Shown: positions 1,613 through 24,749 of the stretch, in pieces | Numbering within the stretch: the stretch's first letter is position 1 | Layout: the number at the start of each line of letters is the position of its first letter | From: Halomonas sp. MCCC 1A13316 | Lineage (GTDB): Bacteria > Pseudomonadota > Gammaproteobacteria > Pseudomonadales > Halomonadaceae | DNA length: 64,000 nucleotides | Assembly: GCF_014931605.1 (NCBI RefSeq) | Contig: NZ_CP053382.1 | Span: 3,906,001-3,970,000 of the forward strand | Reading direction: 5' to 3' | Position numbers and translations under genes: made by a program | The notes under the pieces: generated by a model | Seen by the model: only the letters and a program-made list of their open reading frames with translations | Databases searched by the model: none | Told to the model about the DNA's origin: nothing

Positions 1613-2383
1613 TCATTGTCCAAACCACTTGATTAGTCGGTCGGTCTCGTCAAGCCAATAAGAGAGTTCTGGCTCGATGTGGAGGAACAGCTTGGCTAGC
1701 AAGGTACCTTCGGAAAGAAACTCCGCAACAGGTACGACACGGCTGGTCGTACGTGTAAAGTACGTGTTGTAAAGCTTGATCATGGCCACATCAGTTACCA
1801 GAAAATCGGCGGGGTCTAAATCCAACCGACGCATCACATCACAACTGCTGAAGTTGTAGAGTGGGCGGTAGCCGGGGTCGACGATTGCTGGCGAGATCGG
1901 CACCAATTCCTCGCCACTTTGAGCCACAATCTCTTTGATCCCTCCCGGGTTTCCCCAAGAGTGCGGCCCACCAGCCAACCCGGCGGCCAGAGCCTTGGCA
2001 AGCAAGGGGTTGCCCGCCCGCGAAGCGAACATACATTCACTCAACCAATGCAGTTTGCTACTGAGCCCTGTTGGAAAAAGCAAGCTCGTCGGATCACGAA
2101 AGAAAACAGTATCAGCGTCTACCCAAACGCCACCATGCCTGTGGACAAAAGCCATGCGAATGAAGTCACTCTTGGCAATTATCGCCTCGATGCCCTCTGC
2201 CAGTGTGAAGGCTAGGGGCTCGAACCCCCAATCCTTGCCTAAGATATTCGAGTCGATGTATTCCGGTACTGTTTGAGGCGTCAACAAAAGAAAATTGTCG
2301 CCCAGGGCCCTCTTGATCGAAACAAGTGCCAAAGCTATATAGGGTGGCATCGACTGCCCCGGAGCCGTCTCCCAAAAGCTCAC
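1613..2383 (-). CDS. DXD-motif glycosyltransferase (capsular polysaccharide synthesis / GT32-like)
   Basis: The protein has the Gly_transf_sug type core: a segment reading SDFIRMAFVHRHGGVW is followed by VDADT, the DXD metal and nucleotide-sugar site, as in Och1-like and capsular polysaccharide transferases. It probably transfers a hexose to a cell-surface glycan in the cytoplasm. The open frame runs up to 2497 but would then overlap the upstream gene by 85 bases. I prefer the GTG at 2381-2383 (256 residues), which follows a GGGA stretch and lies 30 bases after the upstream stop. It is the last gene of the minus-strand operon that begins at 5434. The catalytic motif gives good confidence in the fold; the substrate is unknown. 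Confidence 0.72.
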   Translation of the reverse strand: MSFWETAPGQSMPPYIALALVSIKRALGDNFLLLTPQTVPEYIDSNILGKDWGFEPLAFTLAEGIEAIIAKSDFIRMAFVHRHGGVWVDADTVFFRDPTSLLFPTGLSSKLHWLSECMFASRAGNPLLAKALAAGLAGGPHSWGNPGGIKEIVAQSGEELVPISPAIVDPGYRPLYNFSSCDVMRRLDLDPADFLVTDVAMIKLYNTYFTRTTSRVVPVAEFLSEGTLLAKLFLHIEPELSYWLDETDRLIKWFGQ

Positions 2384-2412
2384 ATAGCGTACTTTATTCC
2401 CTTTACAGCGGT

Positions 2413-3537
2413 TCAACACTGGACCGCCATTCCATCTGGGGTTAATAGGCCAGCGTCTGAGAGGTGCCTTTTGAGTATTGCCAGCGACGGCGCACACTCC
2501 GCCTGTCTCAGGAAATCGTTACCCAAAGCGGACTTGTACAGGTTCAGCCAATTCATAATGGGCACCCTAGGCAGGAACGCTTCGAACTCCTTCCTGTTGA
2601 CTTCGGAAAATACCAGACGCAGCGTCCGCAGGATCGGCTGGTAATCCGCCTCGGACAAAAGCGCGGCCAAGTTACCATCGAGCCGGTTCTTAATGACCAT
2701 CGTATTTAGGCGCTCCTCGATGGTAGCATCAACAAGCGCTACCCTCGGATCAATCGCTACTGGGTAGATTGCTTGGAACGACTTGGCACCGTTAAGCATG
2801 GACTCGTACAGCACCTTGTCAGCGGTCGATCCGGTCACCAGCACATCGTCGCCAAAGATCACATGCACACCGCTCCAGCGGTAGAAGTTCTCAGCGGGGA
2901 TGACATGATCCTGAACTAGGTTGACGCGCTCGCGCTCCTCGGCACTCAGGCTGGCGTAGTTCTCGCATGGTGGCGCAATCCGCGGCAACTTGACATTAAT
3001 AATCGTAGGCAACTCCATATGCGCAAGCTTGAGATTGACCTCCTCTACCACGATGCCATAAAGGACGTTCGCCGTGGATGGCACATTGCGCCAGCCGGTA
3101 GTCATCATCACCACATTATCATTGCAGGCCTTTGCGGTGTGGAACAGTCGCGCCCAATGCGATTCAGGCGCGTCAAGTTGTGCGCATATATGCTCTATCA
3201 GCAACCATGCCAAGTAGCGTATATCCCTCATGCTCCCATACTTAGCGCGGCTATAGGTTGCTACCAAGGCCGAGGCGTCGGAGTCACTGCCCATATTCCG
3301 GAACGAGCCCAAACCGTCAGGCGACAGATAGTTCAAGGCGCTCCCACCGAAAATAGAGACATACTCGGGCATGTTTATCAGGTCGCGCTTGAGCAGGTCG
3401 GCTGCGAATGCTCGTAAACCCAGCTTCACGTCCTCGGGACGAGTCTGCATCCGAGCTTGGTGAAACCCGGCCAACTGGACATCGGCCGGTGCTGCTGCGG
3501 TTTCACTCCAGTGGGTCGCGAGCAAGTTGTCAGACAT
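2413..3537 (-). CDS. Phosphoribosyltransferase-fold protein
   Basis: A 374-residue protein whose middle carries a PRPP-binding loop: HVIFGDDVLVTGST at about residues 225-238 fits the hhhhDDhxTGxT signature of type I phosphoribosyltransferases. Upstream of it, NVPSTANVLY and INVKLPRI look like the earlier strands and the lysine/arginine region of PELOTA-associated PRTases. Such enzymes use PRPP to make or break N-glycosidic bonds, so a nucleoside-like product is possible. The open frame begins at 3630, but the first 31 codons overlap the PHP gene and are basic and low-complexity; the ATG at 3535-3537 is a better start. It lies between a PHP phosphoesterase and a glycosyltransferase. No named family is recognised with certainty, and the base substrate is unknown. 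Confidence 0.65.
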   Translation of the reverse strand: MSDNLLATHWSETAAAPADVQLAGFHQARMQTRPEDVKLGLRAFAADLLKRDLINMPEYVSIFGGSALNYLSPDGLGSFRNMGSDSDASALVATYSRAKYGSMRDIRYLAWLLIEHICAQLDAPESHWARLFHTAKACNDNVVMMTTGWRNVPSTANVLYGIVVEEVNLKLAHMELPTIINVKLPRIAPPCENYASLSAEERERVNLVQDHVIPAENFYRWSGVHVIFGDDVLVTGSTADKVLYESMLNGAKSFQAIYPVAIDPRVALVDATIEERLNTMVIKNRLDGNLAALLSEADYQPILRTLRLVFSEVNRKEFEAFLPRVPIMNWLNLYKSALGNDFLRQAECAPSLAILKRHLSDAGLLTPDGMAVQC

Positions 3538-3545
3538 TTCGATGT

Positions 3546-4409
3546 TCACTGTAGAATAATTTTTTGGTTGCTTTGACCTACCGCCAGAGCGGCCGGCTCG
3601 TCCAAGGGCACGTCTATTCTGCGGCGGCATTCAAAGTAGCTGATACTCTGCAAGCCAAGAGGTAGCAGAGCATTGAGCATATCCCTGATTCCTGCGCCAG
3701 CATCACAAGGGTCGTGAGCATCAGAGCCAACGGTGAAAGCTGCGTTGTGTGTAATCAATTGCGGCAACAGTGCGCGAGACGGATAGGACCACACCCCATG
3801 TATCTCGTGCCCCGACTCAAGATCCAGGCTCGATTTGCGAATGCCCGAAGCATTCAACTCATAAGCGATGCCATTGCGGGCGAAGAGCGGAAGTAACGGC
3901 TCAAGACGACGCAAGACTACTTCTTCGGAAACGCCACGCAGCAAGGTGTCTGCGTGACCCACAGCATCGAACAAGCCACTTTCCAGCAGTGCCTCTAGAT
4001 TCGCGAAGTAACGATCAAGGAACGCTTGTCCAGCCAGGCGTGGTAGCTCCCATACCTTCACCATTCTATTGCCGGGCACCTCGACGTAATGGATTGAGCC
4101 GATGGCGAAGTCCAACTCGTAGCGAGCCATAAGGTCATGATTGTAGGATTCGGAACCCGGCATATAATCGAACTCCAAACCTCGCAGTATTTTGATCTGC
4201 CCTTGATATTCCTGCTGCGCTCGATCAATATCGGCGAAGTAGTAGTCGAGTTCAGCCTCCAAAAGGCGGTTGTCCGAGTCCACAGCGAAAGGCGCGTGAT
4301 CGGTAATGGTTAAAACCTTCACACCCGCAGCTATTGACGCGCGAACTAGTTCGTCGACAGAACCGGTCGCATGCTTCGAATAAAAAGTGTGGCTATGAGA
4401 ATCAATCAT
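3546..4409 (-). CDS. PHP-domain phosphoesterase (HisJ-like)
   Basis: A 287-residue single-domain PHP enzyme. The metal ligands of the family are all visible: HSH at residues 5-7, TDH at 36-38, E79, H107, H152 and D154 in GHAD, and the closing D230/H232 in GSDAH. Length and motif order match histidinol-phosphatase HisJ, but the gene is not in a histidine operon, so it more likely removes a phosphate from another small metabolite. Its ATG overlaps the stop of the radical SAM gene by four bases (4406-4409), which implies translational coupling. Its stop lies 9 bases before the preferred start of the PRTase-fold gene. Cytoplasmic; no signal peptide. Confidence 0.85.
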   Translation of the reverse strand: MIDSHSHTFYSKHATGSVDELVRASIAAGVKVLTITDHAPFAVDSDNRLLEAELDYYFADIDRAQQEYQGQIKILRGLEFDYMPGSESYNHDLMARYELDFAIGSIHYVEVPGNRMVKVWELPRLAGQAFLDRYFANLEALLESGLFDAVGHADTLLRGVSEEVVLRRLEPLLPLFARNGIAYELNASGIRKSSLDLESGHEIHGVWSYPSRALLPQLITHNAAFTVGSDAHDPCDAGAGIRDMLNALLPLGLQSISYFECRRRIDVPLDEPAALAVGQSNQKIILQ

Positions 4410-5434
4410 GCGGGCACCAATTTCTCAAGCAGGCCGTCGTGAATCGCCAGTTCTTTGACTAGCCAATAGGGGTTGTTTGCCTTCGCCACGATAGACTGTA
4501 CGAGTTCCACGTTGTCGATCAGAGCCAGCAGGTCGGTCAACGGCTGACTATAAAGCGCTCTCACCAACGGCGTTTCCCTTACATGGGAGGCTAAGTATTT
4601 CCAACGAACGGTATCGAAGTGAATATTTCCCAGTCGCTGGTTCTCAACCCCGTACAGGTAGACATCTCCGTTGGGCTTTATTGTTAAATCCATTCCGTTA
4701 GCTAGCGGCGGCTTATTCAAGCTGCCAAAGGTGAATCGTTTGTTGACCTTGTTCTCGGTGGCCTCGATATAGTCATACAGATCCAAGTATCCATCAGGCG
4801 TACTCGGTGCAGGGTGTACAAGGTTCTTGTAATCAATTCTAAAGCTGTCTTCACCAACTATTAATATATCCTCAAGGGTATCCCGCGGCTCTATGATGGC
4901 GAGTATTCCCCAACTTGCCAGCTCGGAGGCTAAGTAATTCCGTGTAAAATCACGGTCAGTATCGATGGAGCGGAACGAAAAGCTCAGCCCAGCTGGGCGA
5001 AATTCTCGCAGGAAATTTAAGCTGAATCCGTGAGCCCGCCATTTCACTTGCTTGATGTGATGGCTATCTGTGCTCAGGCGAATATTGCAAGTGTCCCCGT
5101 TATCAAGCACGATCTGGTTTGTTGTTTTGTAGAACTCGGCCATCTTGTCATGAGGGAGGAATCCACTAGTAATAAATTCGAAGCTGTTCCCACCACTAGA
5201 AAGCCTGAGAATTTCGTGAAATACCTTTACGTTATTGAGCGGCTCGCCTTCCCCACTAACAGAGATCCGCTTCACATCGGACCCATTGATCAGGGCAGAC
5301 AAGTTTTCCTGTGCTAGCGTCGACAGTGTCATGCTCTCGCCCGCCTTATGCTTGTCAGCATACATGCAGAATGCGCAGCCCACACCGCAGACCTGGGTAA
5401 TATCGATGTAAAGTAGATGCCCTTGGAGATCCAT
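4406..5434 (-). CDS. Radical SAM protein
   Basis: A 342-residue radical S-adenosylmethionine enzyme. The cluster motif is C16-x3-C20-x2-C23 within QVCGVGCAFCMYAD, and the SAM-binding glycine motif GEGEP is at residues 61-65. No C-terminal extra cluster motif is visible: few cysteines follow residue 100. It is the first gene of a four-gene minus operon, overlapping the PHP gene by four bases, so it should act in the same pathway as the PHP and PRTase-fold proteins. The residue patterns do not let me assign it to a named subfamily such as SPASM peptide modifiers. A perfect 9-bp stem-loop lies about 60-90 bases upstream of the start. Confidence 0.82.
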   Translation of the reverse strand: MDLQGHLLYIDITQVCGVGCAFCMYADKHKAGESMTLSTLAQENLSALINGSDVKRISVSGEGEPLNNVKVFHEILRLSSGGNSFEFITSGFLPHDKMAEFYKTTNQIVLDNGDTCNIRLSTDSHHIKQVKWRAHGFSLNFLREFRPAGLSFSFRSIDTDRDFTRNYLASELASWGILAIIEPRDTLEDILIVGEDSFRIDYKNLVHPAPSTPDGYLDLYDYIEATENKVNKRFTFGSLNKPPLANGMDLTIKPNGDVYLYGVENQRLGNIHFDTVRWKYLASHVRETPLVRALYSQPLTDLLALIDNVELVQSIVAKANNPYWLVKELAIHDGLLEKLVPA

Positions 5435-5491
5435 GCTTACTTTCCCTTAAAGAGTCTCATCACCACTTTTCGAGGCGATATTTTTAAATTT

Positions 5492-5523
5492 TCTCCGCAG
5501 ATAAGTCTCTTAGCCTGCGGAGA
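5492..5523 (-). promoter_or_regulatory. Stem-loop upstream of the radical SAM operon
   Basis: A perfect nine-base inverted repeat (TCTCCGCAG ... CTGCGGAGA) encloses a 14-base loop. It lies 58-89 bases upstream of the radical SAM start, so it would be in the leader or in the promoter. No T-run follows on either strand, so it does not look like an intrinsic terminator. It may be an operator or an RNA leader element; this is inference. Confidence 0.4.
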
Positions 5524-5769
5524 GACACCCCACTGTATTGCCGTCTTATCCAATATAGAAGGCTATTCTATAAATCATAAGCCTGGATAGGCCGCACATG
5601 CGATTATAGTATAGCGCTGAAATAATTATGACGCTGACGTTTAGGGCTTTCGTGTCGTGTCTAACTATCGGCAAATATAAATTATTCTTTAACTCTTTTT
5701 CCTGAGTTCAAGCAATATGCGCGACACCTGACTTCATTCAACACCGATAAGCGCACCTTGCACCCTTGC
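5524..5769. other. AT-rich non-coding gap
   Basis: No plausible gene is seen on either strand between the stem-loop and repeat module A. The segment is AT-rich, with several short T and A runs. It is one candidate for the AT-rich far end of the genomic island, but nothing in it proves this. Confidence 0.4.
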
Positions 5770-7100
5770 CGACACGTCCGCTTTGGGGTCGTTAAGAGCC
5801 ATTCATATGATACGCCGGGCTTGAACGCTTCCCCTTAATGTGAACAGGCACGCTACCGCTAGGGAACCCTGACGCGAGCTGCGCCTCCCTTCCATGGAGG
5901 CCTGAGGTGTCGCCATTTAGAGACGCGACAGCATCAGGCAGATACATACTTTCACACTACAGACTAATCAAACTTTTCTCGATTAGCGAATGGTGGACTT
6001 GAGGCGCGTCAGTGAAATGCTCGGTTGATGGGGGCGTCGAGATCGCGGATGAGGTTCAGGAGAGATGGGGGATGTGCGCATGGATGGCAAAACCAGTGCC
6101 ACACAAGGATGGGAGGGGCCGAGCTGGGCTTGCATAGGCCAGGGCTGCCTAGGCGGAAAGAGACAGCCCCGGGGTAAGTGCAGCGTCTACACTACGAGTG
6201 ATCTTGTCGGCTGTCAGCGCCCTCACATGGCGCCGCTAGTGGTGAGTGACTGTGCCCAGTTCTTTCTTCCGTGACCCTACTACTGGCACGTTCGGCTAGC
6301 AGATGAGGCTTGGGGTGCCGTCAGCTAGGCATAATAACTCACCACAATAACCTCGGCAGCGCCCTACTCGGTACGTGGGGTCCCTCAGCTAGGCACGATG
6401 GTTCACCACTACGGCCTCGGCAGCGCCCTACTCGGCACGATCACTCACCGGTAGAGGAGGCATGGGCGTCCCTCAGCTAGGCACGGTGGCTCACCACAAC
6501 GGCCTCGGCAGCGCCCTACTCGGCACGATCACTCACGGGAGAGTCCTGGCAAGAGTCAGCTAGGCACAATGGCTCGCCACTACGGCCTCGGCAGCGCCCT
6601 ACTCGGCACGATCACTCACCGGTAGAGGAGGCATGGGCGTCCCTTAGCTAGGCACGATGGCTCACCACAACGGCCTCGGCAGCGCCCTACTCGGTACGAT
6701 CACTCACCGGTAGAGCCCTGGAAGAGTCAGCTAGGCACAATAGCTCACCAATACGGCCTCGGCAGCGCCCTACACGGCACAATCTCTCACCGGTAGAGCC
6801 CTGGCGACAGTCAGCTAGGAACAACGGCTCATCCAAACGGCCTCGATAGCTATGATCTCGACAAGTGGATTCTCTTACCCCATGACCCTCTTTTCCGCTG
6901 CCAGATACCACGGCGTACCTTTATGCGCAGATGAGACCTGAGGCAATGTTGTGTACGCAACGCCCCCGGTTGGTGAGGGGTAAAAACGGGCCATCGAGCC
7001 TCACTGGGAGTTCCAAAGTGTATAGAGCCGTGGATTCTCCCTACCCCACGGACTTTTTTCGCTCACGGTGAGTGATCGTGCCTAGCTGACCGCCCGTTAG
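5770..7100. repeat. Repeat module A (long non-coding direct repeat)
   Basis: This segment has a directly repeated partner at 10988-12215. Both have the same plan: a unique head of about 460 bases, a tandem array of units near 84 bp, and a tail that includes a short pyrimidine-rich line (CTACCCCACGGAC in this copy). The first 210 bases of the heads (from about 5788 and 11004) differ at only about a dozen positions by eye. Other common points are the TGGTGAGTGA boxes just before the arrays and the GCGCAACG stretches in the tails. In this copy the tail line occurs twice (about 6868 and 7023). Stop codons interrupt every frame of the head, so it is not a gene. I know no named element with this structure. 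Confidence 0.75.
6322..6870. repeat. Tandem repeat array A, 83-88 bp units
   Basis: Units begin with CAGCTAGGCAC at 6322, 6386, 6474, 6557, 6645, 6728 and 6812. The first unit is short (64 bp); the rest are 83-88 bp, and the last decays. Each unit holds two direct copies of one motif, approximately CTMGGCACRATSRCTCACC, separated by CGGCCTCGGCAGCGCCCTA-like sequence. Inverted copies of the motif (GGTGAGTGA...GTGCC) lie just outside the array on both sides, near 6240 and 7067. The unit lengths are not multiples of three and frames break, so the array is not coding. Confidence 0.8.
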
Positions 7101-7199
7101 GTGCGTCCTTCGCTCGGGAGCTGTACTGTGTGCTGCGCAACCGCTTTCGGGAGATCCATCAGGCACTAATCGCCACTTAACATTTAGAAGGGCGTCCAA

Positions 7200-7481
7200 G
7201 GATGGCATTATCAACATCCCAGCTATCGCCGTCTGGTGGTGGAGAATCGGATACTCCGTAGCCTTTCGGGCAAGCGCAACTGCTTAGATAATGCTGCGAT
7301 AAAGAGATTCTTCGGCACCCTGAAGGCGGAGTACTCCTATCTGAATCGGTTCGACACCGTTGAGATGTTGCAGCAAGGCATTGCCGACTACATTCACTAT
7401 TACAACCCTCACCGGACCAAGCAGAAACTAAAAGGCCTGAGCCCCGTACAGTACAGGACTCAGGCCTTGAGCGCCGGCTGA
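7200..7481 (+). pseudogene. IS3-family transposase fragment (OrfB C-terminus)
   Basis: The frame from about 7200 reads GWHYQHPSYRRL and then ENRILRSLSGKRNCLDNA, followed by FFGTLKAEY and RTKQKLKGLSPVQYR. This is the C-terminal part of the rve-type integrase core of an IS3-group transposase, including the final glutamate region. The N-terminal two thirds, with the first two catalytic aspartates, are missing, and no partner OrfA or terminal repeat is present. It is therefore a dead remnant. An apparent GTG at 7236 is not a real start. Confidence 0.85.
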
Positions 7482-7565
7482 ATGAAACGTCCAACTACTG
7501 AGGTTCAGTTCATGAGGGTATATGGGGCTTCTTGATCGAGCTTCGGCACCTATCGCCGTGCAAAA

Positions 7566-7934
7566 TCAGTCCTCGGTGCGGACCAGCCAGGACTCGACGG
7601 TTTCGTCACCATGCTCGTCCTTCCAGGCCTTGAGGGTCTTCTGGTTACCACCACGGGTCTCGACAACCTCCCCGGTGTTGGGATTCTCATAGATTTTCAG
7701 CTTGCGCTTGCGGCGCTGTGCGGTCGGCTGAGAAGCTGGTGATACACTGGCTGGATCCAAAATCCCCAGAACATCACTGGAACTCTTATCGTACTCTTTC
7801 ATCAACGCTTCGAGTTGATTCTTGAACTCAATCTCCGCTTTTAGACGGGGATCAGATTTCATTTTCTCTAACTGCTCAGCGATTTGCTGCATTTGCCGTT
7901 CTTGCTGCGCGTACTGTTGCAAAAGGTTCGACAT
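7566..7934 (-). CDS. MvaT/MvaU-type H-NS family nucleoid protein
   Basis: A 122-residue protein with the two-part plan of MvaT. The N-terminal half (residues 1-60) is a charged coiled coil for oligomerisation, with FKNQLEALMKEYDKS close to the MvaT pattern. After a linker comes a C-terminal DNA-binding part containing YENPNTGEVVETRGGN and LKAWKDEHG, the AT-hook-like RGGN loop of this family. Such proteins coat AT-rich DNA and silence horizontally acquired genes. The gene stands alone, on the opposite strand to its neighbours, inside the repeat-framed segment. It may silence island genes or modulate the chromosomal copy; this is inference. Confidence 0.9.
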   Translation of the reverse strand: MSNLLQQYAQQERQMQQIAEQLEKMKSDPRLKAEIEFKNQLEALMKEYDKSSSDVLGILDPASVSPASQPTAQRRKRKLKIYENPNTGEVVETRGGNQKTLKAWKDEHGDETVESWLVRTED

Positions 7935-8028
7935 AGCCTGGGTCTCTAAAGGATTAATTAACGTATCAAATGATAACCAAAGGTTAATTTAAAATCAATA
8001 GTATTTTTACTTCGATGTCCTTGGGCTA

Positions 8029-8193
8029 ATGGCAAACACGGAATGGGAACTCAGATTTAGTCATGGTCGCACTAAGCTGCCAAGCCAAGAATATCGCGGG
8101 AAGAAGCCGTACTATGAGTGGCGTGAGAACCGGGAGCCATTCTGGCTGGCCGCTATCAAGGCCGAGCATGACGATTGCGACTCTATTCTGTGA
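8029..8193 (+). CDS. Possible small protein, 54 residues
   Basis: An ATG-started frame of 54 codons rich in charged and aromatic residues (KKPYYEWRENREPFW in its middle). No signal peptide or known domain is seen. The ribosome site is weak. It is flanked by about 95 bases after the mvaT-like start and by about 295 bases of apparently empty sequence before the exonuclease gene. The composition looks protein-like, but it could be the remnant of a longer gene. Confidence 0.35.
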   Translation: MANTEWELRFSHGRTKLPSQEYRGKKPYYEWRENREPFWLAAIKAEHDDCDSIL

Positions 8194-8488
8194 GATTCTC
8201 ACTGAGCCAGCGCGGGGGGTGGCCAGGGAGATCCAACCGTGCATCCCATTGATCCTGGCAATAAGAGCGCAGGATCCTGGCTTGTCCCACACCTAACCCA
8301 CCGAGGGGCACTGCCCCATGACGTCCTCCACCTATGCGCTGTACAGACTTTCCGTTGGGCGGTGAGCAAACGGGTATACACACCCACCGAGAACGATCCA
8401 GGACTGATCGAGCCTATCCCCACCGATCAGAATTGATCTTTCTTCTCCAAGCCGCAACCATGCTTAATCACGTGCAGGGAGCATCGGC

Positions 8489-9541
8489 ATGATCATTCGT
8501 CTATTCGTGGCCTGGCTAGCCATGACCCCATTGCTCGCCTTGGGAGACATCGTCATTGGCAGCTGGAACATCCAGCATCTCGGCTGGGACAACAACAAGC
8601 GCTTCGACAAGGTCGCCCATGTCGCCAGCCATTTCGACTTCCTTGCCATTCAGGAACTGATGAATGAAGCAGCCTTGGAGCGCCTAAAGCAGGAAGTCGA
8701 GGAGATAACCGGGGAATCCTGGTCCTCCATGGCGAGTCATGCGCTCGGCCGCTCAACCTACCGCGAGCACTATGCGTTTCTGTGGCGGGACAGTGCCGTA
8801 GAGTACGACAGCGGCGCCGTGATCTTCATCGATCACCGCGATATGTTTGCCAGGGAACCCTATTCCGCCAAGTTCCGCAGTCTTCGGACCGGTCAGGAAT
8901 TTGCAGCGGCCACCGTGCATATCACTTACGGTCGTCGCATCGGGGACCGCTTGCCCGAGATCGAGGCCCTTGCCGACTACTGGCAATGGCTTGATAAGGT
9001 CTACCCCGATACCCCTCGTCTGATTCTAGGAGACTTTAATCTACGCCCAGAGCACCCTGGCTGGGAACCGGTGCGAGAGCTTGGGGTGATCCCGGCCATC
9101 ACCCAGAGAGCCACTACGCTGGGACTGGCCGATGGGCGCTATGCCAACCTTTACGACAACATCTGGAAGATTTCTGGCAGCCTTGATGTGACCGAGCGAG
9201 GAATCGTGCGCTTCCCCGAACTTTTCGGCATCGGCCACGAGCGAGCACGCGATGTCGTCTCCGACCATGCACCAGTCTACCTGACGCTGGGCAGCGCCAC
9301 GCTGGAGCTGACGGCCTTTGATGGCAGCCTCCATGACCTGGCTGAGGCCAGCGTGTTATGCATCGACATCAATGCGACCGAAGCCGACCTGCTGACGGAC
9401 CTTCCCCATGTGGGGCCGGCTCGTGCCGAGGCTATAGAGGCAGGACGCCCTTGGCAGTCTCTTCAGGACCTCTCTCGCATTCGCGGGATCAGTCCTGGAA
9501 GGGTCGACGAGATCCAGGCCAGCGGACTGCTCTGCAATTGA
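8489..9541 (+). CDS. Secreted endonuclease/exonuclease/phosphatase family protein with HhH tail
   Basis: A 350-residue protein that begins with a Sec-type signal peptide (hydrophobic residues 2-18, cleavage near LALG-D). The DNase I-like fold follows. SWNIQHLG near residue 25, AIQEL (metal-binding Glu), LGDFNLRP near 180 and SDHAPV near 255 are the canonical catalytic motifs. The last 70 residues include ATEADLLTDLPHVGPARAEAI, a ComEA-like helix-hairpin-helix DNA-binding motif. It is therefore probably an extracytoplasmic nuclease acting on DNA. The start ATG is preceded by GGGAGC. The ordinary GC-rich codon use is unlike the AT-rich cargo further right. Confidence 0.85.
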   Translation: MIIRLFVAWLAMTPLLALGDIVIGSWNIQHLGWDNNKRFDKVAHVASHFDFLAIQELMNEAALERLKQEVEEITGESWSSMASHALGRSTYREHYAFLWRDSAVEYDSGAVIFIDHRDMFAREPYSAKFRSLRTGQEFAAATVHITYGRRIGDRLPEIEALADYWQWLDKVYPDTPRLILGDFNLRPEHPGWEPVRELGVIPAITQRATTLGLADGRYANLYDNIWKISGSLDVTERGIVRFPELFGIGHERARDVVSDHAPVYLTLGSATLELTAFDGSLHDLAEASVLCIDINATEADLLTDLPHVGPARAEAIEAGRPWQSLQDLSRIRGISPGRVDEIQASGLLCN

Positions 9542-9555
9542 ACACTTCTCAACGA

Positions 9556-9768
9556 CACTCGGCAACTCGTCCCAGTGCGTTGTCCAGCGAGGTGTGCGGT
9601 TAGCGCAGCGAAGATGCCAGGCGGCACCGGGCGAGGGGCGCCCGAACGTCACGGTCCCGCGTCCCATCCTGCCGTTGATGTTGTCCAGGGTCGCCATCAG
9701 GCGGTCGTTACGTTCACGGTCGGCTCGGCTCTCTGGTGTATCCAGCAGGGAGAGCTGCGTCCTCTAAC
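9556..9768 (-). pseudogene. umuC 3'-end relic
   Basis: On the minus strand one frame reads QLSLLDTPESRADRE, then DRLMATLDNINGRMGRGTV and finally TPRWTTHWDELPSVV. This is the C-terminal end of a UmuC polymerase; compare DTINRSQGKGAV and EYTTRWDELPVV in the other umuC of this window. About 70 codons survive and everything upstream is lost. The sequence differs from the umuC at 21.4-25.1 kb, so it derives from a different umuC and not from a recent duplication. Confidence 0.75.
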
Positions 9769-9796
9769 AGCCAAGACTGAAATTCAGCATACGGCC

Positions 9797-9817
9797 AAAA
9801 GCGGTCTTTCAGACCGC
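9797..9817 (-). terminator. Possible intrinsic terminator (minus strand)
   Basis: A perfect seven-base stem (GCGGTCT / AGACCGC) with a three-base loop is followed on the minus strand by TTTT. It would end transcripts coming from the 222-residue gene at 9904-10572. Confidence 0.45.
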
Positions 9818-9824
9818 CCTCATA

Positions 9825-9906
9825 TAACGATTAAGCTAACGGGCAGGAAAAAGCGCAGCTATTGTCTGTCCAGCGAACGAAGTAAGCGGCGTTGAGCGCA
9901 TTGTTA
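9825..9906 (-). other. attC-like recombination site 1
   Basis: The outer ends form an inverted pair of the attC type: TAACGATTAAGCTAAC at the left, and GTTGAGCGCATTGTTA at the right, whose complement reads TAACAATGCGCTCAAC. The stop codon TAA of the neighbouring minus-strand gene lies within the outer end of the site, as is usual in integron cassettes. The inner arms are poorly paired. No integrase gene is in the window. Confidence 0.45.
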
Positions 9907-10572
9907 GCCGTCAGCACGATTGCCGCCCCGATATTGGTTCCAGAATGCAAGAGCGGATCTATCTACTTCGGGGAAGTTTTCCCAGTCAGGAAAATACAGG
10001 CAGCTATTTGCAAGTACCTCTAATCTCGATTGGTCTTCTTCTTTTGATGGGTGAAATGGTTGCCAGTACTTCTCTGCTAATCCCACATTTTCTGAGTCTG
10101 TAACTAGTTTTTCGTATAGAGCAACGTCCGCATGATGAAAGGTTCCACCGCTGCGGACTATATAGCAGCGTTCCAGTGAGCGGTTATGCCAATTCCAGTC
10201 TACTGCTCTGGCTTCAGCTGTGGGTTTGTCATAATTTAAATAGTGGCAGCGAAGCCGTGATGGTAGATTTGGATATTTTGCTTGCCGTATTTCTTCAAGA
10301 AGGTTCTCTGCCTTCAAAGCTGCGCCCGATTTCATCGAAGCTGGCGCAATACCGTCTAGCAAATCTTCTTGAGCGAGCACAAGGCCATTAGACATTTTTG
10401 CATTGTGCAGCATGAGCCCGAAACTAAGAGGGCCAACATTTCCGTCAGTTGGTACGTAACCTGTTCGAAAAGGGCAGAGTATCCAATATTCATGATTCCA
10501 TAGCTCATGATGGCTTTCGTCATCACACTTTAGGATGAACTCTGAAAGGTCAGCAGAAACCACTTTTGCCAT
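9904..10572 (-). CDS. Unknown 222-residue protein, integron-cassette-like gene
   Basis: I do not recognise this protein with certainty; it is reminiscent of DUF2441-type proteins of unknown function. Visible features are SRLRCHYLNYDK near residue 105, GGTFHHADVALYEKL near 145 and a final WENFPEVDRSALAFWNQY. It has no signal peptide and no membrane segment. It is less GC-rich than the exonuclease gene. The ATG is preceded by a GTTAGAGGCACAAC leader, and the gene sits exactly between two attC-like palindromes, both in minus-strand orientation. That is the structure of a mobile gene cassette, promoterless and translated from a nearby or external promoter. Confidence 0.65.
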   Translation of the reverse strand: MAKVVSADLSEFILKCDDESHHELWNHEYWILCPFRTGYVPTDGNVGPLSFGLMLHNAKMSNGLVLAQEDLLDGIAPASMKSGAALKAENLLEEIRQAKYPNLPSRLRCHYLNYDKPTAEARAVDWNWHNRSLERCYIVRSGGTFHHADVALYEKLVTDSENVGLAEKYWQPFHPSKEEDQSRLEVLANSCLYFPDWENFPEVDRSALAFWNQYRGGNRADG

Positions 10573-10600
10573 ATGTTGTTGTGCCTCTAACTTTGGCGGC

Positions 10601-10651
10601 TAACGTTGCCAGCACGCGCCGTGTCAGCGGTCGCCGTGCCTGGCATGGTTA
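10601..10651 (-). other. attC-like recombination site 2
   Basis: A near-perfect palindrome: left arm TAACGTTGCCAGCAC (10601-10615), right arm GTGCCTGGCATGGTTA (10636-10651). The right arm has one extra base in the middle of the stem, which resembles the extrahelical base of folded attC sites. It lies 24 bases after the stop of the small secreted-protein gene, where a cassette recombination site is expected. Confidence 0.55.
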
Positions 10652-10674
10652 TGGCGGGCGAATGGGCCCGACCA

Positions 10675-10869
10675 CTATTCACACTTGATGCTTTTAAGAA
10701 TCCACAAAGACATTGCTTCATCCGGGCGAAACTTACCCTTATTCTGCTCTTGCGCCCAATCAATCGATTGGCAAGATGTGTAATGATCTGGAGCACCGGC
10801 CATTTCCCAGAATCCATTTGCAAAAATCCAAATGCAAAACACCGCTACGCCGATAGATATTTTTTTCAA
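10675..10869 (-). CDS. Small exported protein, 64 residues (cassette-like)
   Basis: The frame starts with TTG, nine bases after an AAGGAG ribosome site, and begins KKISIGVAVFCIWIFANG, a typical signal peptide or membrane anchor. The mature part has two cysteines (one in YTSCQSIDW, one at KCE near the end) and no known domain. Small secreted proteins of this type are common in integron cassettes. The attC-like palindrome follows directly. No homologue comes to mind. Confidence 0.5.
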   Translation of the reverse strand: MKKISIGVAVFCIWIFANGFWEMAGAPDHYTSCQSIDWAQEQNKGKFRPDEAMSLWILKSIKCE

Positions 10870-10987
10870 ACCCTATTTCTCCTTTGAATCTAGCGCTCCA
10901 GACTGCGCCTTAAAAATGGAAGTCTTATTATAGTCGAATGCAAACCATAACTTTTGAACCCCAATGAACGAGCCTCCTGCATTTTTC

Positions 10988-12215
10988 GGCATGTCGGCTT
11001 TGAGTCGTTAAGGGCCATTCATATGATATGCCGGGCTTGAACGCTTCCCCTTAATGTGACCAGGAACGCTACCGCTAGGGAACCCTGACGCAAGCTGCGC
11101 CTCCCTTCCATGGAGGCCCGATATGTCGCCATTTAGAGACACGACAGCATCAGGCAGATACATACTTTCACACTACAGACTAATCAAATTTTCTTCGAGT
11201 AGCGAATGGTGGTCTTGAAACGTGCCCGTGAAATGCGCTGTTGATGAGGTCGCTGGGATGGGGGCTGAGGTGATGGAGGGATTTGGGATGGATAGCGAAT
11301 CCAACACAAGACGAGGTTGGGCGGTATCGAGATAAGCTGGCATGGACCAGGGCTACCTCGCCGGAAGGGACAGTCTCTGGGTACGGCCCGCACCACAAGA
11401 GAGCTTGTCGACTATCAGCGTCCTCACATGACGCCGGCTAATGGTGAGTGATAACTGTGCCCAGCTCGACACAATCGCTCACCACAACGGCTTCGGCAGC
11501 TACCTACTCGGCACGATCACTCACCGGAAGAGGCATTGGCGTCCCGCAGCTAGGCACAATGTCTCACTACTACGGCCTCGGCAGCTACCTACTCGGCACG
11601 TTCACTCAACGGAAGAGGCATGGCGTCCCGCAGCTAGGCACAATGGCTCACCACTGCGGCCTCAGCAGCTACCTACTCGGCACGATCACTCACCGGTAGA
11701 GCCCTGGCGGCCCTCAGCTAGGCACAATCACACGTCACAACGGCTTCGGCAGCTCCTTACTCGACACGATCACTCACCGTTAGAGCCTTGGCAGCCCTCA
11801 GCTCAGCACAATGGCTCACCACTGCGGCCTTGGCTGCTACCTATTCGGCGCGATCACTCTCCGGTAGAGCCATGGCGGCCCTCAGCTAGGCACAATCACT
11901 CGTCACAAAGGCTTTGGCAGCTTCTAACTCGGCACGATCACTTACCGTTAGAGCCCTGGCGGCCCTCAGCTAAGCACAAAGGCTCATCACTACGGCCTCG
12001 TCAGCTCTGATCTCGAGCAGTGCATTCTCCCTACCCCAAGCCTTTTTCTCTTCCGGTAAATGATCGTGCCGAGTTCACCGCCCTTCAGCTGCATTCAAAC
12101 GTGCCACCAGGCTCGGGAATAGCGGCCTGCCTCCGAATGTGGTGTGCGCAACGCACCCCGGTTGGGGAGGCGAGTGGTGAGCCATCGTGCCTAGCTGGCC
12201 GTTCAGCACGACTGA
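10988..12215. repeat. Repeat module B (long non-coding direct repeat)
   Basis: This is the second copy of the module at 5770-7100, in the same orientation. The head (10988-11440) keeps the conserved block from 11004 with GTCGTTAAG at its start and the TACTTTCACACTACAGAC line. The array follows at 11462-12020, then the tail with CATTCTCCCTACCCCA and two further inverted motif copies (near 12055 and 12177). The unit spacers differ from copy A: AGCTACCTA here where copy A has AGCGCCCTA. The arrays have thus been homogenised within each copy. The two modules enclose about 3.9 kb. Confidence 0.75.
11462..12020. repeat. Tandem repeat array B, 84 bp units
   Basis: Units start at 11462, 11547, 11631, 11715, 11799, 11883 and 11967, a near-constant period of 84 bases. 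As in array A, each unit has two direct motif copies (CTAGGCACAATGGCTCACC and CTCGGCACGATCACTCACC or close variants). Because 84 is a multiple of three, one + frame stays open for 189 codons, but that frame has no ribosome site and breaks in array A. I treat it as non-coding. Confidence 0.8.
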
Positions 12216-12752
12216 CAGTGGGCCAGAGGTAGGGCATAGGTCACTGTCGTAAAATCACTTTGCCGCCCAGTGCCCTGACTGGCCTCAGCAGGACGCTCAA
12301 TTGATTACGCTTTCTTTGCCTATTAAAGTTTCGTGCTAAATTGGTTATGGCTACAGCATCAGAACACAATGCATGCCGGCATACCCACATAAAACCTTAG
12401 CTTTTACTGGCGGCTTATACTGCACTGGTTATCTATTCAATTATGGATGGGTATACTATGTTTTTCTACGCTTGCCATGGTGTTCTTTGATCTTGCCGCT
12501 ATTTAATTTACCGCATAATAAAAAAAAGTTAGATCCAGTGTTTACTTCCTCCTACCTTGTGCTAAATTTGACGAATACCCTTTATGCTAAACAGGTTTCA
12601 ACATGCATATAAAACTGATGCTCTGAAAGGCTCAGGCGAAAAGCTACTGACCTAATCGACTTGGTTTAACCAAGATAGACGCTGGTCTCTGCCTTCACGA
12701 AGTACGCCATATAGCGTGCCTTATAGCTATCATCTCCTAGAGAGGTAGTGCT
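12216..12752. other. Non-coding gap before the AbiEi-like gene
   Basis: An AT-rich stretch with no convincing gene. A 79-codon frame at 12373-12612 is hydrophobic but has no ribosome site. The last 100 bases must contain the promoter of the next gene; no clear consensus boxes were found. Confidence 0.4.
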
Positions 12753-13547
12753 ATGAATGACTCCGATGATGAAATGCGACAGCGGGAGCAGGACCGGGCT
12801 TCCGGCAAGCTGACTGACGATACGACCAAACGCAGCCGGGTGCGGAACGGGGAGAGTGGTGATGGCCGCATCGAAGGCAGGGTTCCCTTCGGTCGTGTGT
12901 GGGACTTACAGCTTGAAGGCAAAATTCGTCAGAGAATCCAGGAGGCTCCCCTCCTCTCGATCATTAAGCTAACTGACCAGCCTGAGTACAAAGACGCGCG
13001 TATTGCCCTAGAGGAGGTTTTCGACTGGCTTATCCGCGACGGCACACTTTCTCAGTACCGCCACAACTGGTTCTACCGCCCCAAGGTTGGGATACTGGGA
13101 CCGCGATCTCCTTCTCAAGGCGAGATCCTCAGGGCTCTCATGTTCGCTGCGGGACAGCGTGTTGCGTACATCACCGGCCCTGCTCTCTACAATCAACTTG
13201 GGCTCACCACCCAGATGCCAAGTGTAGTCACCTTGGCCACTATGCAGCCAATAGAAAAGGAGCGGCTGTACTTGGGAGGCCTTCGTATCAAGCTGATACC
13301 AGCGCGCTTCGACTTCCATGAAGAAGATATACCTGCTCTAGAGATCCTCGATGCTCTCACGGCGCTGGCGAAGGATCCCAGCCTTGGCTCGCTCGATGCT
13401 TACTCTATCCTGGAGAACCCTTTGAATCATATCCGTAAGCTTGTAGATAAGCAGCCTGCGGGGCTAAAGGATCGGCTTGTGATACTAGCAGAAACGTACT
13501 CGGCAGAAACCAGAAATGCTTTTGCAGAAATGCAATTGTCAAAATGA
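12753..13547 (+). CDS. AbiEi/DUF6088-like antitoxin-type transcription regulator
   Basis: A 264-residue protein. The middle segment YITGPALYNQLGLTTQMPSV (about residues 144-163) matches the core of AbiEi/DUF6088 antitoxins of type IV toxin-antitoxin systems (tGxsALnxxGLttQvP). Before it lies a winged-helix-like region with a REGTL-type turn (DWLIRDGTLSQY). The first 50 residues are charged and probably disordered. Canonical AbiE systems place an AbiEii nucleotidyltransferase toxin directly downstream, and none is found here: the next gene encodes an unrelated small protein. GAGAGG precedes the ATG by about seven bases. It may regulate its neighbours, or the unknown gene next door may be the partner. 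Confidence 0.7.
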   Translation: MNDSDDEMRQREQDRASGKLTDDTTKRSRVRNGESGDGRIEGRVPFGRVWDLQLEGKIRQRIQEAPLLSIIKLTDQPEYKDARIALEEVFDWLIRDGTLSQYRHNWFYRPKVGILGPRSPSQGEILRALMFAAGQRVAYITGPALYNQLGLTTQMPSVVTLATMQPIEKERLYLGGLRIKLIPARFDFHEEDIPALEILDALTALAKDPSLGSLDAYSILENPLNHIRKLVDKQPAGLKDRLVILAETYSAETRNAFAEMQLSK

Positions 13548-13570
13548 AGCAAACCCACAAAGGAATGATC

Positions 13571-13966
13571 ATGAAACAATCAAAAACTATTACTGCCCTC
13601 ACCGCATGGGAGTCTACAGCCGAAAGCCACCATGATACAGCTTGTATTGTCGAGGGCTGGGAACTTGTCACAATCGAGCTAGATGATCACGTAAGCAAAC
13701 ATCTACTAGGTACCATTGTAAGCGACTACAAGCATCGCTGGAAAGCTGGAGACTACGTGTTTACTAGCCCGATACAAGAATTATGCTTGGATACGGGGCT
13801 CGTCAAAACATTAAACACAGTCTATTGCCTGTCTGGAGATGGCGAAGAAGTTTTCCCTACGCTAGAAGAAGCATACTCTATGAGAATTACGGGCCAACCG
13901 CTGAGGATGATTCGTGATATTGAGTCATTAGGCATAAAGTTTGTTGGTGGAATAAACGATGATTGA
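13571..13966 (+). CDS. Unknown 131-residue protein
   Basis: The frame is open from 13544, overlapping the AbiEi-like stop. The ATG at 13571 has a better ribosome site (AAGGA six bases upstream), so I start there. The sequence has an acidic, soluble composition with KAGDYVFTSPI and NTVYCLSGDGEEV. It may belong to a family of small uncharacterised proteins seen in pseudomonads (DUF6957-like), but I am not sure. The position directly after an antitoxin-like gene makes it a candidate partner of that gene. Confidence 0.6.
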   Translation: MKQSKTITALTAWESTAESHHDTACIVEGWELVTIELDDHVSKHLLGTIVSDYKHRWKAGDYVFTSPIQELCLDTGLVKTLNTVYCLSGDGEEVFPTLEEAYSMRITGQPLRMIRDIESLGIKFVGGINDD

Positions 13967-14114
13967 GCAAGACGAAAGTGTTAGGTGCATCGATGTATGT
14001 CGCGACCCTGCTATCGAGTACGGTACTTTGGAAGCGAAATGGGGTGCTGGCTCGTCACATACTGGTAAAATGTACCGCCTGGTTATGTGTGAAACCTGCT
14101 TTTTTCAGCCTTGA
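13959..14114 (+). CDS. Small cysteine-containing protein, 51 residues
   Basis: The ATG overlaps the end of the preceding gene by eight bases, which suggests coupling. The protein has two cysteine pairs (RCIDVC near the start and MCETC near the end) that could bind zinc. No known domain. Its 3' end overlaps the convergent small frame at 14083-14274 by 32 bases, so one of the two may not be translated. Confidence 0.45.
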   Translation: MIEQDESVRCIDVCRDPAIEYGTLEAKWGAGSSHTGKMYRLVMCETCFFQP

Positions 14115-14274
14115 GTGATCTACATCGCTGTCGCTTCGCACAAGACATGTTTAATGATGAGGCCAAGACTCCCTCTCGTGAGAAATTTGGTAGGCTCGAA
14201 TAATAACCTTTGTCGCCATGAAATAAAGCGGTATACGCTGATGCGACAAGCAATACAACAAGACATGACTTCAT
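14083..14274 (-). CDS. Small protein with signal-like N-terminus, 63 residues
   Basis: Begins KSCLVVLLVASAYTALF, a signal peptide-like or membrane segment, followed by a basic C-terminal half. Its ATG overlaps the stop of the 32-residue membrane gene upstream (ATGA), which supports a coupled pair. No domain recognised. The overlap with the convergent 51-residue frame lowers confidence. Confidence 0.4.
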   Translation of the reverse strand: MKSCLVVLLVASAYTALFHGDKGYYSSLPNFSREGVLASSLNMSCAKRQRCRSLKAEKSRFHT

Positions 14275-14369
14275 TTTCTCTTATTAAGCCAATATGCAGC
14301 CAAGCATATAACAAAACCGAATATCAACAAAGGTGAAGAAAGAAGGATCATTTCGAGATACTCATTCAT
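14271..14369 (-). CDS. Tiny single-span membrane protein, 32 residues
   Basis: Reads MNEYLEMILLSS, then a hydrophobic segment of about 18 residues ending AAYWL, then the positive tail NKRK, a classic N-out/C-in transmembrane miniprotein. AGAGG lies six bases before the ATG. It is coupled by ATGA to the next small gene. Its function is unknown; such proteins can be toxins, membrane-stress factors or subunits. Confidence 0.45.
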   Translation of the reverse strand: MNEYLEMILLSSPLLIFGFVICLAAYWLNKRK

Positions 14370-14561
14370 AGCCTCTTTACCTCTTTGGTGAGCTATATTG
14401 AATACTAGCACTGAATTCTGCGATTTTGAAACATATAAATTTTATACTTAATCTCATTTGTGATAGTCTACAACTCCAGCAGTAGCTGCGTGAGCGCTGA
14501 TTTAAATTCGCAATGACTGATATAAATCGTTCCCTCTTTCCTGAGAGGGATTCTACTTGTT

Positions 14562-14834
14562 ATGATTGGGAATCTTCTTCCGAGTGAGACTTATGTTGTG
14601 GATTTTCGAGACTCCCGCATTGGTGTGCGCAACGCTTCTCTTATGCTGGGCGTGACAGTGACACAGCTGCGTGAAGCAATCTTGGGCGAGAAAAAGATCC
14701 GCGGCGTCACCCCGCCAAAGCCGATATATAAAGGAGGCCAACGCCGTTCAGAGATGATCTTCAAAGCCGGTGACGTCATGGACTGCGCTGAAGCTATCAA
14801 GCTCGCAGAAGCAGACGGTGAAACCAAATTGTGA
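14562..14834 (+). CDS. Unknown 90-residue protein with possible HTH
   Basis: The segment VRNASLMLGVTVTQLREAIL (about residues 22-41) resembles the helix-turn-helix of small DNA-binding adaptors, and a later RRSEMIFKAGDVMDC could be the rest of a MerR/excisionase-like wing. The ribosome site is a rather distant GAGAGGGA. It lies in a run of small + strand genes before the large helicase. It could be a regulator of that cluster. Confidence 0.5.
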   Translation: MIGNLLPSETYVVDFRDSRIGVRNASLMLGVTVTQLREAILGEKKIRGVTPPKPIYKGGQRRSEMIFKAGDVMDCAEAIKLAEADGETKL

Positions 14835-14998
14835 TCCATTCAGCACTTGGGAGGAGCGTCGAGCCACTGACGCTACGAGTGGCCATAGGCGAGTTAGGGT
14901 GCGACAGAAGAGACGATGCTGGCCATGGATTCTTTCCAGAGCATGCCAAATTATTAACGTGTTAGACTAACCGCATCAAAACCACAGAGAGTTAAATC

Positions 14999-15376
14999 AT
15001 GTCGGATATACAAGCTTTCGAAGAAGCCCTGCTTTCCCATCGAAGCGATTTCATCGTGAAGCACAACCGCGAAGTTGACAAAGCAAAAGAGCAATTCGGC
15101 GCCCGCCAGGTCTCTCAGAAAAAGCTTTCTCCCCTCCCCCATCAGGCCAACTTCTCTACGCGCCAGAAGCCGACTGAGACAAAGGGCGTTGCTTACAAAA
15201 CGGGATACATCATCAGACTAGTGGTTAGAAAAAAGAAAGTAAGCATGCTTGACGAAATATTTGAGTTCGAGTCATCTAAAATTTCTGAGCTGGAAGCCAG
15301 ATTGGACGCAGAGAAGGCTGCAAAGGCAGCAGGCTATCCAATTATCGCTTATACTCAGTCTATTACGAAATTGTAG
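14999..15376 (+). CDS. Unknown 125-residue protein
   Basis: A soluble, charged protein with no recognised domain. The middle (KTGYIIRLVVRKKK) is basic and the end has a short coiled-coil-like stretch (ISELEARLDAEKAAKAA). GAGAG precedes the ATG. It is 14 bases upstream of the next gene, with which it probably forms an operon. Confidence 0.5.
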   Translation: MSDIQAFEEALLSHRSDFIVKHNREVDKAKEQFGARQVSQKKLSPLPHQANFSTRQKPTETKGVAYKTGYIIRLVVRKKKVSMLDEIFEFESSKISELEARLDAEKAAKAAGYPIIAYTQSITKL

Positions 15377-15390
15377 ACTCGGAGCATGGC

Positions 15391-15774
15391 ATGGACGATA
15401 AGAAAAGAACTCTAGGTGAGGCAATTAACAATATCAAGATTGAAGCCTCTGGAATCTCAATCACTCTGTCTCATGCTGTCTCTCGGTTAAACGAACTAAA
15501 TAACGAACTGAACCGCCTCCAAGCAATGTTTGAAGGCGTTGAGCACCAGGAAGATCTACTAAGTCAGCTCGATCCCGAAGAGGCGTTATACGCAGCGCTA
15601 TACAAGAAAACAAATGATCATTATGACCTATACCAGCCTACGCTAGCGGCAATCGTGAGAGACTGTGTTAAGAACAATGGCATGATTCCTGAGTCGCCAC
15701 AAAAAAAGCAAGCTGAATACCAATGCGCAGGTATTATTTACTTCATAGAGGACGCATACAAGAATTTAAAGTAA
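15391..15774 (+). CDS. Unknown 127-residue coiled-coil protein
   Basis: Residues 20-50 (HAVSRLNELNNELNRLQAMF) form a clear amphipathic coiled coil. The C-terminal half is acidic and helical. GGAG lies eight bases upstream of the ATG. No named family is recognised. After it come about 300 AT-rich bases that should hold the promoter of the helicase gene. Confidence 0.5.
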   Translation: MDDKKRTLGEAINNIKIEASGISITLSHAVSRLNELNNELNRLQAMFEGVEHQEDLLSQLDPEEALYAALYKKTNDHYDLYQPTLAAIVRDCVKNNGMIPESPQKKQAEYQCAGIIYFIEDAYKNLK

Positions 15775-16071
15775 CTTGTAAAACAACCCGGCGTCATATT
15801 TTGCTAGTTTTGTTGTTCCTTTATCATCACAGCAACCGAGTTTTAACATCATCTCAATTAACATCCTTTTTCTTAAGCACTCACCTCAACAGCAGACACC
15901 CATGACATTTACGATCCCCGAGGAGCCATGGTTTAACAAGAAAAGAAATAATAAAATTTAGCTAAACCTAACCAGACGCATCTTCCTTAACACTTCATGC
16001 CAAATGGTTACAATTTGCTTCATTCATACTATGCTGTGGTAGTCGGCCATAGTCAAAAAAATGAGGCGCTC

Positions 16072-21398: not shown

Positions 21399-22290
21399 TC
21401 AACGCACTACGGGCAGTTCGTCCCACCGAGTCGTATATTCGGGTGATTTGTACTTTTGGCGCATCGCCCATGGCTTTGATATCCCTTGAGCACCGAGAAT
21501 CACCGCTCCCTTGCCCTGGCTGCGATTGATGGTGTCCAGAGTCTCCATCAGCTTGACTGAGCGCTCCGACTGCCCACCGTGGAGCAGGTCATGCTGGTAG
21601 AACCGTTTATCGGCCACTTCCACGAGCCCGATACCCGCTTTCATGAAGGCATGCCCTGGGCGGTAGAGCCTGGCGATCTCAGCGCGCGCCAAAGCGACGA
21701 TTTCCCGTGTATCGTCCGTGGGGTATGGCAGCCTCGCCATATTGCTTACAGAGTGAAAATTAGGCTCAAACGGGCTGGTGTGCATAAACACGTGCATGGC
21801 CAAGGCAATGTGCCGCTGTGCCCGCAGCTTCTCGGCAGCTCGTGACGCATAAAGCGATACCGCTTCCAGACACGGCTGAAGCTCCGTGGCCTTCTTGCCA
21901 AAGGATCGGGTGCAGTAGATCTGCTTCTTGGCCGGTGGCACTTCCTCCAAGGCGAGGCATGCTCTGCCGTTCAGCTCCTCAATGGTGCGCTCCAGGTTCA
22001 CGTTGCTTGCCCGCCTCACGATCTTGGGATTCGCGATCGCCAGATCCCAAGCCGAGTAGATTTGGAGATCCGCCAGACGCCTGCCAAGCCGCTTCGCGAT
22101 GCCCCAAATACCGGTCACCGGGGTGCGCCGCAGAAGCCACTCCCACTTATGAGGTTCATCGAGGACACAGACTCCCTGGCACTTGGGTATCTTTTTTGCC
22201 GCATGATTTGCCAGCTTGGCCAAGGTCTTCGAGGGAGCGATGCCCACACCCACTGGCATCTTCACGTCTTTCCACAAACGGGTTTTCATC
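21399..22290 (-). pseudogene. umuC: umuC, C-terminal part (disrupted by IS66)
   Basis: About 297 codons of the Y-family polymerase V subunit UmuC: the thumb segment VGVGIAPSKTLAKLANHAAK, the little-finger domain, and the terminal DUF4113-like tail ending EYTTRWDELPVV. It begins exactly at the IS66 target duplication. The frame would continue the N-terminal part at 24742-25108 if the IS were removed. Its apparent ATG (MKTRLW) is internal to umuC, so an independently translated fragment would lack the catalytic palm. Confidence 0.92.
22283..22290. repeat. IS66 target-site duplication, left copy
   Basis: TTTTCATC, identical to 24742-24749 on the other side of the IS. Confidence 0.9.
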
Positions 22291-22374
22291 GTATCCGGCC
22301 GGTGAACACACCTTTCGCTGAGCCCCGACTTCGATGACGGTAGGTGTCCATCTATTGCTTAGTGGACACCTACC

Positions 22375-23075: not shown

Positions 23076-23158
23076 GCCTCGTCGGCACATAAGGCGAACC
23101 CTGGCCATTCGATGATCCGCGCATCCCCTTGCCGCCGGCGGACTGGCATAATCGCCGG

Positions 23159-24709: not shown

Positions 24710-24741
24710 TCACTCGCAAAGGGTGATGGCCGGGCGCTTAC

Positions 24742-24749
24742 TTTTCATC
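24742..24749. repeat. IS66 target-site duplication, right copy
   Basis: TTTTCATC, identical to 22283-22290. In umuC it encodes part of GAEMK. Confidence 0.9.

Follow-up and report, generated by a model that had tools for sequence, protein, structure and literature searches.

The window analysed here is a stretch of 64,000 nucleotides from Halomonas sp. MCCC 1A13316 (contig NZ_CP053382.1, positions 3,906,001 to 3,970,000; G000 denotes this genome, and coordinates without a prefix are positions in the window), and it contains two long modules, M1 and M2, each composed of a short leader, a conserved head, an array of direct repeats and a tail. A third module of this kind, M0, lies just to the left of the window. 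We consider it probable that all three are chromosomal integron cores from which the integrase gene, intI, has been lost. The integrase gene is absent from these loci, an attI-type site lies beside M0 and beside other heads, the genes 5' of the modules point away from them, and an attC-like site lies beside M2. Overall, the modules appear to represent an intI-less variant of the chromosomal integron core to which a phased array, so far unexplained, has been added. If so, a chromosomal integron platform can outlive the loss of its integrase, recur within one chromosome and gain a conserved DNA structure, and the head could serve as a marker for old integron sites.

The sequence-only reading of this region described two modules whose head, array and tail agree in order and strand, and comparison confirmed this description: the local alignment of M1 and M2 scored 926, compared with at most 33 for 30 mononucleotide shuffles. 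The first ~210 bases of the two heads are indeed nearly identical, with 14 differing positions and 3 gap columns of 212. The M1 leader is common to the M0, M2 and G115 heads and partly to the G125 and G013 heads. The suggested search for further copies in Halomonadaceae was successful: a covariance model of the head (R2, built from 11 of the eventual 28 heads; threshold E <= 0.01) detected 28 heads in 15 of 90 genomes of the genus, of which 15 heads, in 10 genomes, scored above 130 bits and 13 below 85 bits. A scan of genome contigs with an exact pattern returned 5 stretches, from Halomonas alkalisoli, H. stenophila, H. rhizosphaerae, H. gemina and Billgrantia kenyensis.

The nearest relative found for the start of the head is, as judged by sequence comparison, the DNA directly behind integron integrase genes. 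IntI proteins above the TIGR02249 cut-off are encoded in 27 of the 90 genomes (28 loci), and in 23 of these loci CACGCTACCGC or a near form occurs 10-32 nt past the intI stop codon; with 0-1 mismatch, CACGCTACCGC is also the start of 27 of the 28 heads (the exception is G113_C82b). A CTAATCA-like block ~125 nt further on is common to heads and intI flanks. Five of the 28 intI loci were excluded before flank alignment, four because no start motif was seen by eye (G011, G054, G118, G059) and G037 because its frame is broken and its true end was not apparent; all 23 aligned flanks contain the motif. With G001 omitted, 22 of these flanks formed model R3, which was searched over 486 kb including the 28 heads and yielded 14 matches at E <= 10; 12 of the 14 coincide with heads, including eight end-to-end matches. 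In blastn comparisons, DNA upstream of the M0 head matched the upstream region of intI at several loci (best E 2e-5). Head bases 76-97 matched DNA just 3' of intI in locus L063 (E 2e-4) and, more weakly, in the other five loci (E 0.4-5). The weight of the likeness lies in the ~125-nt register and in the clustering of matches on heads, not in the start motif, and the homology of the head and the intI 3' flank is supported but not proven. The integrase itself is missing: the five TIGR02249 matches in the G000 genome are all below the cut-off and none is inside the window, and tblastn searches with IntI around the 28 heads (up to 8 kb 5' and 6 kb 3') identified a single relic, at G019_C23.

The attI-type sites were identified with a model of 23 intI-adjacent attI sites (R1), which gave a single strong match (E <= 6e-5) in each of the 29 intI loci tested, including seven outside the model; among these seven, two are unusual, L103, with the site ~1.5 kb from intI, and L109, with the opposite orientation. 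Of the nine other R1 matches, eight are reverse-strand matches to the palindromic sites already counted, and the ninth lies elsewhere (E 0.39). The possibility that R1 recognises attC rather than attI was rejected given the one strong match per intI locus, where the DNA up to 3 kb beyond attI would presumably include attC sites, and the failure of R1 to match either attC-like site beside M2. By eye, the central part of these sites resembles the attI letters given for Shewanella (PMC9892861). R1 matches were found 5' of 10 of the 28 heads, and all 10 face away from the head. Where the site is distant, the intervening DNA contains a NERD-domain gene (G113_C77), a gene without a Pfam family (G016_C4), a 179-codon open reading frame (ORF; G125_C63) or several ORFs (G055a). 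A second attI-like site detected by R1 in the G000 genome, which has no IntI above the cut-off, is located at G000:C1:684021-684122 (L135).

Among 5' ORFs >=100 codons long, the one closest to the head points away from it in 24 of the 28 cases, including M0-M2. 5' of M2, two cassette-like genes, a 64-codon ORF and a DUF2441 gene, are each accompanied by a putative attC site (Table 1). The site of the DUF2441 gene matched 12 plasmid records, of which two were inspected; the blaSIM-1/-2 cassettes concerned reside on Klebsiella and Pseudomonas plasmids. This site pairs GGCTAAC with GTTAGC, and its fold is no better than those of shuffled sequences (z 0.4 and -0.1). Its likeness to the attC of a carbapenemase cassette bears on the origin of such cassettes. 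The earlier suggestion that the DNA between M1 and M2 is an acquisition zone with cassettes is supported.

The arrays consist of 84-bp units, each divisible into halves of 42 bp that both contain the 19-bp core CTMGGCACRATNRCTCACC. In M1, the steps between cores are 41-46 bp, with a single step of 64. Allowing up to 2 mismatches, the core has 32 matches in the G000 genome, 31 of them within M0-M2, compared with 1 for a reversed control pattern. Across nine arrays with 92 cores (<=3 mismatches), 71 of 83 spacings are 40-43 bp and 73 are within 2 of a multiple of 42, and the mean information is 1.43 bits in the core vs 0.47 in the spacer. In the array of B. kenyensis C52 and in the M0 tail, the core and the 42-43 spacing are retained with a different spacer; one H. 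alkalisoli head is accompanied by 29 direct cores, and the G055a array deviates, with inverted pairs and a period of 106-107. M0, M1, G115_C66, G102_C17a, G055a, G059, G113_C78a and G098 have an inverted core in front of the array; none was found by script ahead of the M2 and G125_C63 arrays. The asymmetry and conservation of the core, together with the spacing of four helical turns, suggest protein-binding sites on one face of the DNA.

At 1 mismatch, the core was matched in 20 of the 90 genomes, with one match for the reversed control; in six genomes (G000, G098, G102, G059, G115 and G125), the matches form clusters, and 14 have a single match. Among the latter, G013 and G055 contain tails or arrays that require 2 mismatches to be detected. 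Beyond the genus, an exact core was matched in 2 of 390 sampled genomes of the order, a sample without the other core carriers, and both, G000 and G059, belong to this genus. In G098, one inverted and two direct cores occur without a detected R2 head (L055, 9965-10109). Tail repeats far from a head are present in G013 (L045, 16700-17999, several units of ~175 bp) and G055 (L047, 10862-11243), in both cases followed by a similar 408-aa gene; the G013 copy has no Pfam family. Pieces adjoining the arrays at M0 and G125 are ISL3-like, judging from the protein sequence; an ISL3 end as the origin of the core was rejected because the end of the G125 ISL3-like copy, read by eye, is unlike the core. 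A CRISPR array was rejected as well, given that the units diverge by ~20%, the spacers are themselves repeats and no cas domain was found among the 20 window proteins scanned with Pfam.

An intact Halomonas integron has the layout cassettes <- attI - intI -> 3' flank, and the modules are best read as the same layout without intI, namely, cassettes <- attI - short leader - head (the former intI 3' flank) - array - tail, with the attI site recognisable at M0 and not at M1 and M2. IntI supplied in trans could still insert or move cassettes at such a platform, which may have remained able to recombine. The array, in which the 19-bp cores recur on one face of the DNA at every fourth turn, might be bound cooperatively by a protein and serve, for example, as a boundary or silencer next to the cassette zone. 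A bolder proposal, which we put forward with considerable doubt, is that Halomonas holds a stable class of integrase-free integron platforms with a helically phased array of protein sites behind attI. A dedicated DNA-binding protein would act on this array to silence, insulate or pair platforms, and cassette exchange would then be limited to times when IntI acts from another locus.

Several observations weigh against an integron origin of the modules. No R1 match was found 5' of 18 of the 28 heads, including M1 and M2, nor anywhere in the window; of the ten matches, three are weak (E 0.0085, 0.022 and 0.11), and four are separated from the head by 1.0-4.5 kb that includes other genes. No R3 match on a head is strong by itself (best E 0.08), and because the flanks were selected for the start motif and the model that detected the heads contains it, the shared motif alone proves little. 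The information content of the core is inflated since the core served to pick the array units, and much of the regular spacing could result from tandem duplication alone. Finally, no locus with both intI and an array was found, so that an integron origin leaves the array unexplained.

The head could instead be an independent dispersed repeat, such as a terminator, a promoter or a small mobile piece, that occurs behind intI, beside attI and elsewhere, the link to integrons being secondary. We regard this as unlikely, although only 4 of the 13 heads scoring below 85 bits have an R1 match within 1.3 kb, and the G113_C82b, G041 and G015_C44 heads follow ORFs that point toward them; the uniform orientation of all 10 attI-type matches away from the heads and the occurrence of the start motif 10-32 nt behind 23 of 28 intI genes weigh against it. 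A scan of 5500-6300 for sigma-70-like sites, bearing on a promoter in the head or for cassettes, found none. The less probable suggestion that the module is a structured RNA locus, raised by the sequence-only reading, was supported in part and for the head only, where the hairpin GTGTC/GAGAC shows a compensatory change in M0 (GAC/GTC) along with other pair types. The M2 array and tail also fold better as RNA than all 20 shuffles; however, they do so on both strands (z -3.5 and -4.7), as inverted repeats must, and the border cores of opposite orientation match their own partner no better than re-dealt partners (14.9 vs 14.5 of 19 positions, a value reached in 14% of 5000 deals over 8 loci). No Rfam family matched 5000-13000 above the gathering score (the only hit was mir-132, E 4.5).

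It had also been proposed that the modules might delimit an undescribed transposable or recombining unit comprising the 3.9 kb between them (7.1-11.0 kb). Direct repeats do stand on both sides of this segment, and the head and tail repeats of G013 and G055 lie 5-11 kb from each other, with genes in the interval, but the proposal is not supported, given the three modules in a row and the orientation of the heads, which follows the attI-type sites and 5' genes and not the segment. In addition, no transposase common to the loci was noticed, albeit without a systematic search, and there was no match to the head in 72,556 plasmid or 50,697 phage records, to the M1 array in the former or to the M2 array in the latter; we consider such a unit very improbable. 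Three similar copies side by side might, likewise, reflect a recent simple duplication in a single strain, but the M0, M1 and M2 heads are 88-90% identical to one another vs 91-93% to the B. kenyensis head, and heads occur in 14 further genomes of the genus, leaving this explanation with hardly any probability.

The closest known systems are the same-genus chromosomal integrons (intI-attI-cassettes), the clusters of attC sites lacking integrases (CALINs) and iteron or centromere-like arrays. With the former, the modules share the sequence and orientation of attI, the genes that point away and the start of the 3' flank; they differ in having no integrase gene, and neither array nor tail was seen behind intI in the loci examined. 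Direct sites of ~20 bp with helical spacing and inverted border sites, as in the modules, are also characteristic of iteron or centromere-like arrays; those described here, in contrast, are chromosomal and linked to attI-type sites, and no par or rep gene was noticed alongside. CALINs resemble these loci in combining cassette-like genes and attC without a nearby intI, whereas here the presumed intI 3' flank persists and leads into a long phased array of repeats, and three such platforms occur in one chromosome. A CALIN would have two or more attC sites within a few kb; the candidates here are 9824-9907, by its identity to the blaSIM attC, and 10594-10672, by hairpin only. Xanthomonas is reported to have kept cassettes after the loss of intI (PMC12444791). 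A CALIN described from a Shewanella prophage has an attI of its own (PMC9892861), and a table row lists a CALIN for Halomonas sulfidaeris SST4 (PMC10295459). That row was the only Halomonas CALIN encountered in the literature on Halomonas integrons and integrase-less integrons that was searched, outside subscription journals, and no such modules were described there.

Table 1. Modules, neighbouring cassette-like features and attI-type (R1) matches; for the latter, the distance from the head is given
Feature	Position or distance	Strand	Remarks
M0, whole module	G000:C1:3904168-~3905660	same as M1 and M2	ends 0.3 kb left of the window
M1, whole module	5783-7104	+	head, array and tail in order
M1 leader	5783-5841	+	begins GTCCGCTTTGGGGTCGTT; occupies the place expected for intI
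M1 head	5842-5997	+	apparent kin to the 3' flank of integron integrase genes (flank comparison); R2 match 192.7 bits, M1 within model
M1 inverted 19-bp core ahead of array	6241-6259	-	
M1 array	6325-6833	+	12 direct 19-bp cores
M1 tail	6860-7104	+	contains inverted core 7067-7085
M2, whole module	10999-12210	+	head, array and tail in order
M2 leader	10999-11057	+	
M2 head	11058-11213	+	R2 match 184.2 bits, M2 within model
M2 array	11465-11988	+	13 direct cores with 42-bp spacing (43 bp once)
M2 tail	12010-12210	+	inverted cores 12055-12073 and 12176-12194
64-codon ORF, first cassette-like gene 5' of M2 head	10675-10869	-	TTG start; points away from head; no Pfam family
attC-like hairpin site behind 64-codon ORF	10594-10672	-	folded as single-stranded DNA, z -1.7 and -2.1 (one value per strand); by hairpin only
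DUF2441 gene, second cassette-like gene 5' of M2	9904-10572	-	Pfam PF10386, 26.3 bits vs cut-off 25
attC site of DUF2441 gene	9824-9907	-	83-84% identity to site 35-36 nt behind blaSIM-1/-2 in plasmid integrons
Four ORFs 5' of M1, all pointing away from head	1613-5434	-	glycosyltransferase, PRTase-like, PHP, radical SAM
Exported endonuclease/exonuclease with HhH	8489-9541	+	6 of the 16 context sets for heads or arrays contain relatives
R1 match, M0 head	170 nt		E 2e-4 (genome-wide 2e-3)
R1 match, G013 head	205 nt		E 1.5e-9
R1 match, G102_C17b head	168 nt		E 3e-4
R1 match, G113_C78b head	142 nt		E 0.022
R1 match, G113_C78a head	153 nt		E 0.11
R1 match, G019_C23 head	223 nt		E 0.0085
R1 matches, G125_C63, G016_C4 and G113_C77 heads	1.0-1.2 kb		
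R1 match, G055a head	4.5 kb		

The region contains defence-like and DNA-repair-like genes and is bordered by plsC and fabB on the left and by ssb and uvrA on the right (names assigned by eye). G102 has the resolvase, plsC and fabB in common with this locus, and G055 has GmrSD, ssb and uvrA. The defence-like genes, at 12753-21300 and 30543-32645, include an AbiEi-like gene, a PDC-S37/Hhe-like helicase and GmrSD. At 32993-38241, beside ssb (38449), three tyrosine-recombinase ORFs, two above the Pfam cut-off and one just under it, and a small ORF show the ginABCD layout of GInts, two of which are reported at the end of ssb. The ORFs near ssb in G055 are of like size and order. At 21399-25523, umuC is interrupted by ~2.4 kb with transposase-like ORFs, which we take to be IS66; umuD and SRAP genes come after it.

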